Virus record (IMG/VR): IMGVR_UViG_3300047470_000359
Coordinates: 1-40,484 of that record
DNA from: a virus
Strand: one strand, 5' to 3'
DNA length: 40,484 nucleotides
In this document: positions 31,420 to 33,883 of the stretch, piece by piece
Numbering within the stretch: the first letter of the stretch is position 1
Layout: every line of letters begins with the position of its first letter
The notes under the pieces: generated by a model
What the model was told of the DNA's origin: nothing
Databases searched by the model: none
The model's input: the letters and a program-made list of their open reading frames with translations, nothing else
Program-made: the position numbers and the translations under genes

Positions 31420-31448
31420 AATTTAGCTTAGGGCTAATATATGAGCAA
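31420..31448 (-). promoter_or_regulatory. Cro/early-left promoter (pR-like)
   Basis: On the minus strand TTGCTC (31448-31443), 17 bases, TAAATT (31425-31420). The operator at 31422-31438 covers the spacer and -10. The start would lie about 18 bases before the cro ATG. Confidence 0.65.
31422..31438. promoter_or_regulatory. Repressor operator, cro/cI cluster site 1
   Basis: TTTAGC-TTAGG-GCTAAT, one base from the full palindrome TTTAGC-N5-GCTAAA. It overlaps the -10 of the cro promoter. Confidence 0.78.
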
Positions 31449-31454
31449 GGAATA

Positions 31455-31471
31455 TTTAGCTGTGGGCACAT
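31455..31471. promoter_or_regulatory. Repressor operator, cro/cI cluster site 2 (weak)
   Basis: TTTAGC-TGTGG-GCACAT has a perfect left half and a poor right half of the same operator family. It sits next to site 3 at 31471, sharing one base. Confidence 0.5.
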
Positions 31472-31487
31472 TTAGCATTGAGCTAAA
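31471..31487. promoter_or_regulatory. Repressor operator, cro/cI cluster site 3
   Basis: TTTAGC-ATTGA-GCTAAA is a perfect 6-base-arm palindrome with a 5-base spacer, about 20 bases upstream of the preferred cI start. Confidence 0.82.
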
Positions 31488-31506
31488 GACTGGCATCCTT
31501 GCTTGT

Positions 31507-32355
31507 ATGGATATCTATGCAATTCGCAAACGCCAACTCATGAAGTTGATCGGCGATCAGAAAAAAGGCGTCTGCGCCGAGCGCTGGGGTATGGCGCCCG
31601 CGCACCTGAGCCAAATTCTTTCGGATAAGACCGCCAAGAACCTGGGCGATGACGTTGCTCGCCGGATTGAAGTGGTAGAGAAGTTACCGCGGGGATGGTT
31701 TGACGCTCTACCGACCGACGATGAGCCGGCCAGTCCTGGTCAGAAAGAAAGCAATTTGGCGTCACTCACCGACTCAGATTCATCAGCCGCTGATCAGGTA
31801 AAGCGAATGCTTGCAAAGGTGAAAGGCCTCTCAATTGAGGCGCGAGATCGCATTGTCGCGGCTGCCGAAGAGCCTGATGATGGGCTGCCCCACCAACTTT
31901 CGGGGAGCCTTGCAAGCCTACGCCCCACGAATGAAGAAATCGTCATTCCTCAGTACGACATTCGCGCCGCAATGGGTCACGGCCAAGTTCCGCCTGACTA
32001 TACGGAGGTTGTTCGAAATCTCGTGGTACGCGAGGACATCCTGCGCGAGAAAGGCGTCACCTACACATCCAAGACATCTTTGGGGATGATCAACGGGTGG
32101 GGGCAGAGCATGGAAGGCACCATTAATGACAAGGATTTGGTCATTGTCGATAAGGGTGTACGGGATTTCATCGGAGAAGGGATCTACGTTTTGACATGGC
32201 ATAACGAGCTGTATATCAAGCGAGTCATGCGCCTCGACGAGGATAATTACCGGTTGATTTCTGACAACCCACACTATGAAAACCAGACAGCCCGGATCGA
32301 TGACGTAACCATTCATGCCAAGGTGCTACTGATCTGGAACGCCAGAAAAGCCTAA
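31507..32355 (+). CDS. CI-type repressor with S24 peptidase domain
   Basis: The product is 282 aa from ATG 31507. A longer form from ATG 31441 is open and has AGGG seven bases upstream, but it would place operators 2 and 3 inside the gene. The N-terminal HTH lies at about residues 8-60. The C-terminal S24/LexA-like domain has Ser201 (GQSMEG) and Lys238 (YIKRVM). The expected Ala-Gly cleavage bond is not obvious; the region reads RAAMGHG (about 153-159). It maintains lysogeny through the TTTAGC-N5-GCTAAA operators. Confidence 0.88.
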   Translation: MDIYAIRKRQLMKLIGDQKKGVCAERWGMAPAHLSQILSDKTAKNLGDDVARRIEVVEKLPRGWFDALPTDDEPASPGQKESNLASLTDSDSSAADQVKRMLAKVKGLSIEARDRIVAAAEEPDDGLPHQLSGSLASLRPTNEEIVIPQYDIRAAMGHGQVPPDYTEVVRNLVVREDILREKGVTYTSKTSLGMINGWGQSMEGTINDKDLVIVDKGVRDFIGEGIYVLTWHNELYIKRVMRLDEDNYRLISDNPHYENQTARIDDVTIHAKVLLIWNARKA

Positions 32356-32953: not shown

Positions 32954-32965
32954 CGCTCTTTAACA
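32954..32965 (+). promoter_or_regulatory. boxA-type antitermination element
   Basis: CGCTCTTTAACA matches the rRNA-operon boxA consensus (GCTCTTTAACA). It lies about 40 bases after the predicted transcription start of the rightward promoter and before a terminator at 33758-33788. This is where lambdoid phages carry nut sites. Confidence 0.7.
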
Positions 32966-33204: not shown

Positions 33205-33366
33205 ATGAAGCACGCAGCAGCAATATCCCAGCTCGAAATCCACGCCTCCAACTGCGAGAACAACGCAGTGATCCAGGAGCGAGAAGGACAGTTCGAAGAC
33301 GCCGCGAACAACCGCACCAACGCTGCCGATTACCGACAGGCAATCGAAGCGCTCCAGGCTGAGTGA
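33205..33366 (+). CDS. 53-aa early protein, function unknown
   Basis: The ORF runs from ATG 33205 to TGA 33364-33366. The product is hydrophilic and helical (MKHAAAISQLEIHASNCENN..., ending YRQAIEALQAE), with a single cysteine. It is the first coding gene after the rightward promoter and boxA. It is not arginine-rich, so it does not look like an N antiterminator. The ribosome site is weak (CAGG at about ten bases). Confidence 0.6.
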   Translation: MKHAAAISQLEIHASNCENNAVIQEREGQFEDAANNRTNAADYRQAIEALQAE

Positions 33367-33704
33367 ACAACCAGCGCCACGTCAGCCTGACGATAACTGC
33401 CCTAATCCGGTGATGGTTGAGGAAGTGGGTGGTCACTTCTAATCCGGTTAACCCACCCGAGCACCTGGTACTCCCCAGCACCAGGCCGCATCGGGGTGTG
33501 ATCTGAATGCGCAGGCTGATGTGCGCAAGCGTCCATGGAGCCTTCCCTAACAAATGCGGACGGCCAAAGACCGCTACCGTCCTGTCCCGGAGATCAGCAC
33601 CGGCCAGATCACACCCCGATGCGGACGAATTCTGCACCGCGCAATGCGGCCCCCTGCATTACCCATTCAATAGGTGGCCACTGCCTGATCAGTGAGCGAG
33701 CAAT
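33367..33704 (+). ncRNA. Highly structured, apparently non-coding RNA segment
   Basis: This 340-base stretch has no convincing ORF on either strand but many strong stems. CTAATCCGGT is repeated at 33402-33411 and 33439-33448. GAAGTG/CACTTC (33422-33427/33434-33439) competes with GTGGGT/ACCCAC (33425-33430/33451-33456). CCTGGT/ACCAGG pairs 33464-33469 with 33480-33485. A perfect 20-base inverted repeat (33486-33505 with 33605-33624) encloses GCTGAT/ATCAGC (33515-33520/33593-33598) and GGACGG/CCGTCC (33558-33563/33577-33582). It lies between promoter-boxA and a terminator. It may be a structured leader, antitermination or regulatory RNA; I recognise no Rfam family. Confidence 0.55.
33486..33624 (+). 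repeat. Perfect 20-base inverted repeat enclosing nested stems
   Basis: CCGCATCGGGGTGTGATCTG (33486-33505) is the exact reverse complement of 33605-33624, with 99 bases between. Two further stems nest inside. TGCGCA at 33508-33513 and 33522-33527 offers an alternative small hairpin within the loop. Confidence 0.9.
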
Positions 33705-33710
33705 AGGAGG

Positions 33711-33728
33711 ATGACCATCATGAAATAG
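33711..33728 (+). CDS. Minimal ORF (MTIMK or MK)
   Basis: AGGAGG (33705-33710) is followed by ATG ACC ATC ATG AAA TAG. The ideal spacing (nine bases) points to the second ATG, giving a two-codon ORF. Either this is a translated minigene like the lambda bar ORFs, a leader affecting transcription, or a truncated gene start. Confidence 0.35.
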   Translation: MTIMK

Positions 33729-33757
33729 ACCATAACCCGAAGATCGCTGCATCTGTG

Positions 33758-33788
33758 AAAGGCCCGAACGTCCACGGGCCTTTCTTTT
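33758..33788 (+). terminator. Terminator of the early leader region
   Basis: AAAGGCCC-10 bases-GGGCCTTT followed by CTTTT. It separates the structured leader from the rightward coding genes, so antitermination or a second promoter is needed downstream. Confidence 0.82.
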
Positions 33789-33883
33789 GCCTGCCTTTAT
33801 CCGTCAGCACTCTCCCCTGCGCCCAACGGCGGCAGGCGGCCCGAGTGCTGACGAATACACGCAACCCCATCGAGGTAATCGCC

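Follow-up and report, generated by a model that had tools for sequence, protein, structure and literature searches.

What is made from the 223 nucleotides at 33402–33624, where an early operon is interrupted by a long inverted repeat and no gene is evident? The window, that is, the whole 40,484-nt stretch of viral DNA analysed here, holds at this place two arms, CCGCATCGGGGTGTGATCTG (33486–33505) and CAGATCACACCCCGATGCGG (33605–33624), which form a perfect 20-bp inverted repeat with 99 nt between them. The 223-nt segment has a folding energy of −98 kcal/mol, where shuffled versions average −77 (z −4.2; reached in 0 of 200 shuffles), and the fold of its opposite strand has a z of −5.0. The inverted repeat is more than chance, because the exact 18-mer of the arm is present in at least 119 IMG/VR viral contigs, nearly all of which carry the partner arm; it also occurs in Pseudomonas genomes. 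Searches of other genera with the exact stem gave genome matches without the second arm, except for a full element in the doubtfully named 'Pantoea sp. Ap-967' (L142), and plasmids gave no match.

A coding reading was rejected: no conserved frame was seen, and a 225-aa minus-strand ORF has no match to a Pfam family. Also rejected was a mobile inverted-repeat element, given the usual single copy per record, the constant orientation and the compensated arms. The window has no match in Rfam 15 at the gathering score, and with E values up to 5 it gives only ctRNA_p42d (19.3 bits) on the terminator hairpin. Rfam searches of 58 short loci of relatives (gathering score and E 5) were negative except for one insert, that of L054, which is called as a tRNA. 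The covariance models of GOLLD and ROOL gave no match in the window or in the relatives' loci at any threshold used, and no description of such inserts was found in the open-access literature. Comparison with the relatives shows that the stretch encodes a putative structured RNA, whose template is read so that the RNA has the plus-strand sequence, close to where an early operon begins.

Much of this had been seen in a sequence-only reading of the same DNA. Its perfect 20-base repeat 99 bases apart and its strong structure are borne out by the exact arms and the fold z of −4.2, its claim that no gene is evident agrees with the minus-strand ORF lacking a Pfam match, and the described RNA family that it failed to recognise was not found by the Rfam search either. 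It had placed a boxA upstream and a terminator downstream, and both are present (32954–32965 and 33757–33784). Its structured, apparently untranslated RNA was to be given up if the stems lacked compensatory changes, and such changes were found in relatives. That reading is supported on the structured RNA; it overlooked the role of the helix as a frame for exchangeable inserts and the connection with lambda's N leader.

The early operon around the element

The element lies among the following features, all on the plus strand.

31441–32355, plus strand: CI-like repressor gene (PHROG phrog_4, Pfam Peptidase_S24), co-directional with the operon, an arrangement also seen for the leftward operon of lambda
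32954–32965, plus strand: boxA CGCTCTTTAACA, perfect and the single match in the window (0.10 expected)
33205–33366, plus strand: 53-aa gene directly upstream of the element (phrog_3376)
33705–33728, plus strand: Shine–Dalgarno sequence AGGAGG, then the minigene ATG AAA TAG (33720–33728)
33757–33784, plus strand: intrinsic terminator stem-loop with T tail

The window operon is the counterpart of lambda's pL operon, because it runs in the same direction as the upstream CI-like repressor gene and its last gene is an integrase. The boxA lies about 520 nt upstream of the element, with the 53-aa gene between them and no adjacent boxB. Of 168 homologous loci, 88 carry a boxA-like site no more than 1.2 kb upstream. 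The position of the upstream neighbour is held elsewhere by other genes, from 67 families among 152 loci. Downstream of the element come the start-stop minigene and then a phrog_6742 gene; no N-like gene follows the element in the window. A Shine–Dalgarno sequence with a start-stop minigene stands at this place in 51 of 171 loci, versus 2.6 in shuffles. The minigene is ATGAAATAG in the window and ATGTAA, ATGAAGTAG, ATGGACTAG or ATGTGA in relatives, and such Shine–Dalgarno-led minigenes recall the bar minigenes of lambda. Directly before the next gene, positions 33802–33853 hold a perfect 11-bp long-range stem (CGTCAGCACTC..GAGTGCTGACG), and hairpins like it recur ahead of genes in relatives.

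Scaffold, closing helix and exchangeable inserts

The element itself is composed of the parts below.

33380–33392, plus strand: HP0, a small hairpin CGTCAGCCTGACG of the constant scaffold, with compensated forms in relatives
33402–33460, plus strand: optional upstream module with CTAATCCGGT repeats, seven copies compared
33456–33460, plus strand: CCCGA, which is complementary to the ATCGG in the 5′ arm and may serve as its alternative partner until the 3′ arm has been transcribed
33464–33485, plus strand: HP2, a hairpin CCTGGT..ACCAGG, known in 78 versions, nearly all of them hairpins with compensated stems
33486–33505, plus strand: 5′ arm, with the constant base GCATCGG (33488–33494) and the payload helix GTGTGATCTG
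33508–33527, plus strand: clamp hairpin HPa, its loop containing GCTGAT (33515–33520); in relatives the stem is compensated and the loop constant
33528–33586, plus strand: variable insert core of class 13; 99 unrelated core clusters occur in 159 clamp copies among the matches listed
33587–33603, plus strand: clamp hairpin HPb, its loop containing ATCAGC (33593–33598), complementary to the HPa loop
33605–33624, plus strand: 3′ arm, with the constant base CCGATGC (33616–33622)
33637–33649, plus strand: HP3, a hairpin CCGC..GCGG, then CTGCAT (33654–33659)

Alignment with relatives shows a constant scaffold of HP0, a linker, HP2, the helix base GCATCGG/CCGATGC and HP3, which displays an exchangeable RNA insert predicted to fold independently. 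HP0 has the compensated forms GACAGCCTGTC, GTCAGCCTGAC and GTGAGCCTCAC among 236 upstream sequences, and CTGCAT follows the element in 122 of 256 cases, mostly 28–31 nt downstream. In the optional module, the direct repeats CTAATCCGGT stand at 33402–33411 and 33439–33448; the first copy in six homologues reads CTATACCGGT, CTAACCCGGT or CTAAACCGGT, and the exact repeat is therefore incidental. The module also contains the hairpin GAAGTG-GGTGGT-CACTTC (33422–33439), whose loop GGTGGT can pair with CCACCC at 33453–33458 in a predicted pseudoknot. Over the seven copies the stem is compensated (GAAG/CTTC, GTCC/GGAC, GAGA/TCTC), and the loop and its partner are nearly fixed. The sequence-only reading had described these repeats, which are present, together with two mutually exclusive hairpins, which are better read as the pseudoknot.

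Elements with different helices were found by anchoring on the 5′ scaffold alone (CCCGAT, HP2, GCATCGG), and CCCGA followed by T or G served as an anchor for further elements. E. coli genomes gave no match to the Pseudomonas 5′ scaffold, though the clamp family is present there. Across 107 distinct arm pairs, columns 1–7 (GCATCGG/CCGATGC) hardly vary; columns 8–18 are paired in 92% of cells, versus a mean of 62% and a maximum of 69% when the 3′ arms were re-dealt (1000 shuffles). The payload helices fall into at least 14 unrelated clusters, each complementary within itself, and one core occurs both under the GTGTGATCTG helix and under a compensated TGAGCGATCTGG helix. The outer helix is thus evidently conserved as a helix and not as a sequence in the 236 distinct Pseudomonas-phage elements among the matches listed. 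A 3′ arm variant, CCAATGC, keeps the C of the 5′ arm; a second partner, CCCGAT, may constrain the 5′ arm at this place.

Inside this helix, the 236 distinct elements among the matches listed carry 69 mutually unrelated insert classes; an earlier set of 187 elements, likewise among the matches listed, had given 61 interior classes without mutual similarity, in none of which was the interior inverted relative to its flanks. These class numbers depend on clustering at 60% overlap, and the counts are samples of the matches listed. Consensus folds of the larger classes keep 96–100% of their pairs, with compensatory changes inside most of them and adjacent ones in classes 5, 6 and 7. One interior is seen with different left and right flanks, and over 152 loci the classes co-occur with many different upstream and downstream genes, a distribution which indicates that inserts move independently of their flanks and of the neighbouring genes. 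A cognate neighbour gene for each insert was accordingly rejected, since the classes occur beside many different genes. Record-wide counts usually give one element per phage. Four loci (L127, L134, L048 and L137) have second, tandem elements downstream, closed by GCAGATG/CATCTGC and carrying the same clamp and cores; they form arrays of RNA domains between genes.

Hairpins resembling the T-arm of tRNA occur on the plus strand in 3 of 60 class representatives, versus 0.075 expected in shuffles, and on the minus strand in none. The L054 insert scores as a tRNA with 37 bits, its anticodon arm being shortened. Because T-arms are confined to the plus strand and one insert scores as a tRNA, the plus strand is taken to be the RNA strand. 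The window insert has no T-arm and no tRNA feature, tRNA-likeness being limited to a minority of the relatives.

Clamp RNAs in Pseudomonas phages, enteric leaders and tRNA arrays

The clamp family is defined by a closing helix, a GCTGAT loop, an ATCAGC loop and a variable core, and all four are found at 33486–33624. The window insert is shown by this comparison to be of the clamp type, in which two predicted hairpins flank a hypervariable core and have loops that are complementary to each other. A separate scan gave 159 copies, among the matches listed, with dozens of closing helices and with compensated HPa stems, and the same core was found under different closing helices. Among the classes with non-canonical loops, a complementary pair is present in 4 of 14, versus 0.66 expected and 0 of 500 shuffles, for example GCGAT/ATCGC and CTGGCT/AGCCAG. 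As such, a kissing interaction of HPa with HPb is likely, because these 4 of 14 other-loop classes keep a complementary loop pair.

Enterobacterial phages and prophages likewise carry clamp RNAs. That of the P22-like phage IME10 sits between a boxA with a boxB-like hairpin and an N-type gene, and that of Edwardsiella phage GF-2 stands directly before the annotated N gene. The leader of lambda has the same design, GCTTTGGGGTGTGTG .. CACACACCACCAAAGC, directly after nutL and before N. A scan with its helix base GCTTTGG/CCAAAGC gave, among the matches listed, 34 leaders with boxA and 16–17 insert classes, some of the inserts having clamps and some T-arms. Contig L698 carries lambda-type flanks around the P22-type insert of IME10, and two insert classes, one of them aligned, are common to Pseudomonas and enteric leaders. 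The literature searched holds no description of insert exchange for lambda.

A third setting is the tRNA array. The lytic N4-like phage ZC03 has a clamp RNA inside an array of ten tRNA genes, and ARAGORN predicts a tRNA within 600 nt of 11 of the 159 clamp copies, always on the same strand. T-arm hairpins in the clamp flanks number 20 on the plus strand, 1 on the minus strand and 1 in shuffles. Clamp RNAs occur in tRNA arrays and are therefore not tied to antitermination leaders. In L371 (533–735), ARAGORN calls a tRNA-Pro inside a clamp, and a tRNA gene may itself be the payload. Other untranslated, strongly structured gaps between tRNA genes, these without the clamp signature, are seen in ZC03 (L572, 680–1860).

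Mechanism, rival explanations and known systems

The explanation that we prefer overall, and to which we give about an even chance, is a constant frame around an exchangeable insert, which would be freed by RNase III as a stable RNA and might act in trans. During transcription the 5′ arm would first pair with the upstream CCCGA around HP2, the pairing that is predicted when the window transcript is truncated before the 3′ arm. Once the insert is complete, the 3′ arm would displace CCCGA and the long helix would close around the folded insert, a strand exchange suggested by the fold predicted for the truncated transcript. RNase III would then cut the closing helix and free the insert, by analogy with the lambda N leader and the rRNA helix. 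More speculatively, host factors may be the targets of the inserts in trans, with decoys related to tRNA or RNAs that counter host defence as the likeliest roles, because the inserts are diverse, freely swapped and in several cases tRNA-like. The same traits point to a possible arms-race function. Several observations count against this explanation: with the boxA about 520 nt away, a gene between and no N-like gene, the geometry is unlike that of lambda; most inserts are not tRNA-like; the near-invariance of the 7-bp base is not explained by pairing alone; and if only the closing helix mattered, the inserts could be tolerated passengers.

That last point leads to the main rival, a leader structure acting only in cis, in which the helix is an RNase III site or a spacer that sets the distance from boxA or nut to the first genes and tunes their translation, with an apex that would accept any folded RNA and with the inserts as passengers. 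In favour of this, position and architecture match those of the N leaders of lambda, P22-type and Edwardsiella phages, a phage usually carries a single element, and RNA processing of the lambda N leader has been published (Steege et al. 1987, listed by PMC5371410 with other RNase III targets). We nevertheless find it somewhat unlikely, as the inserts have conserved, compensated structures of their own and are common to different genera, tRNA arrays remote from any N leader carry the same clamp RNAs, and the gene that follows in Pseudomonas is not N-like and varies. The arms could instead be boundaries, or sites at which gene modules are shuffled by homologous or site-specific recombination, with the RNA structure incidental. 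Mosaic flanks and neighbours, and insert boundaries that are sharp at the arms, would fit such a DNA-level element; it is improbable, since no fixed DNA site would survive the compensated replacement of the arms, none of the elements is inverted and T-arms are on one strand only.

The two alternative partners of one constant segment recall a riboswitch, whose insert would be an aptamer with a ligand deciding whether ATCGG pairs with the upstream CCCGA or with the 3′ arm. However, the unrelated inserts far exceed known aptamer diversity, no conserved link joins the switch to a terminator or ribosome site, and related RNAs lie in tRNA arrays, so a sensor of this kind is very improbable. The sequence-only reading had offered a regulatory, a put-like antiterminator or a stand-alone RNA. 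The stand-alone RNA survives, in keeping with the related RNAs in tRNA arrays. The put-like RNA, which would bind RNA polymerase for readthrough of the terminator at 33757–33784, is not supported: an early leader position with boxA upstream and an intrinsic terminator downstream is what it would predict, but a polymerase-binding RNA should be constant and this interior is hypervariable, there is usually one copy per phage, and the HK022 pL leader was found to have no such long-range closing helix or insert. We regard it as the least probable reading of all.

Beyond the frame-and-insert explanation for this locus, we put forward, tentatively and as something that may well be wrong, that gammaproteobacterial tailed phages possess a general stable-RNA cassette system. 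Standard helical and kissing-loop clamps would take well over 100 folded RNAs without mutual relationship, tRNAs or their mimics among them, exchanged between phages of different genera at the early-operon leader and the tRNA array as an arsenal against host defences or RNA-handling enzymes, and the lambda N-leader hairpin would be one docked cassette. At the position of the lambda N leader, many phages have an exchangeable RNA under structural selection, and lytic phages carry the same RNAs in their tRNA arrays. Together these findings suggest that Rfam lacks a large class of phage RNAs, for which lambda, P22-type IME10, Pseudomonas phiPSA1 and PseuP_224 offer a ready test bed; such a class would also account for structured non-coding stretches that interrupt the early operons of Pseudomonas prophages.

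Among known systems, the put sites of HK022 are short local hairpins whose sequence is constant, each early operon having one. They share with the element an RNA structure in a lambdoid early leader; the element differs in being usually one per record, variable in sequence and closed by a long-range helix, which sets it apart from put. Y RNA and YrlA (RF02553) similarly join a variable module, tRNA-like in some cases, to an end helix that is conserved, but no Ro-type site is seen here, and the only RF02553 match is to L054 (E 0.026), overlapping its tRNA-like part. GOLLD and ROOL are likewise structured phage RNAs near tRNA arrays, with kissing loops and a variable linker able to hold a tRNA; they differ in their length of several hundred nucleotides and in having Rfam families of their own (PMC12286853), whereas the element matches none. 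In rRNA transcripts, too, a long leader-trailer helix comes after a boxA antitermination leader and surrounds a stable RNA of the same transcript, and in E. coli more than 17 bp of it are needed (PMC10250234); the window helix encloses a small variable RNA and not rRNA.

The closest likeness is to the lambda N leader, with which the element shares an early pL-type leader, a constant helix base and a long helix that closes a folded RNA of about 60–150 nt, the enteric relatives having the same clamp inserts; it may also share the boxA setting, as a perfect boxA lies upstream, about 520 nt away. The closing helix of the window is 20 bp long, above the 15 bp set as the minimum for this likeness, and covaries in relatives. 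Over decades of work on lambda's N leader, its hairpin loop has been treated as filler, and Court and co-workers reportedly assigned the hairpin a role in N autoregulation. The window differs in its base, GCATCGG/CCGATGC where lambda has GCTTTGG/CCAAAGC, in lacking an adjacent boxB and a following N gene, and in the gene that separates boxA from the element. The lambda N-leader hairpin appears to be the enteric counterpart of the element, and one case of a much wider RNA system, as yet absent from catalogues, in hundreds of phages of Pseudomonas and of gut bacteria.
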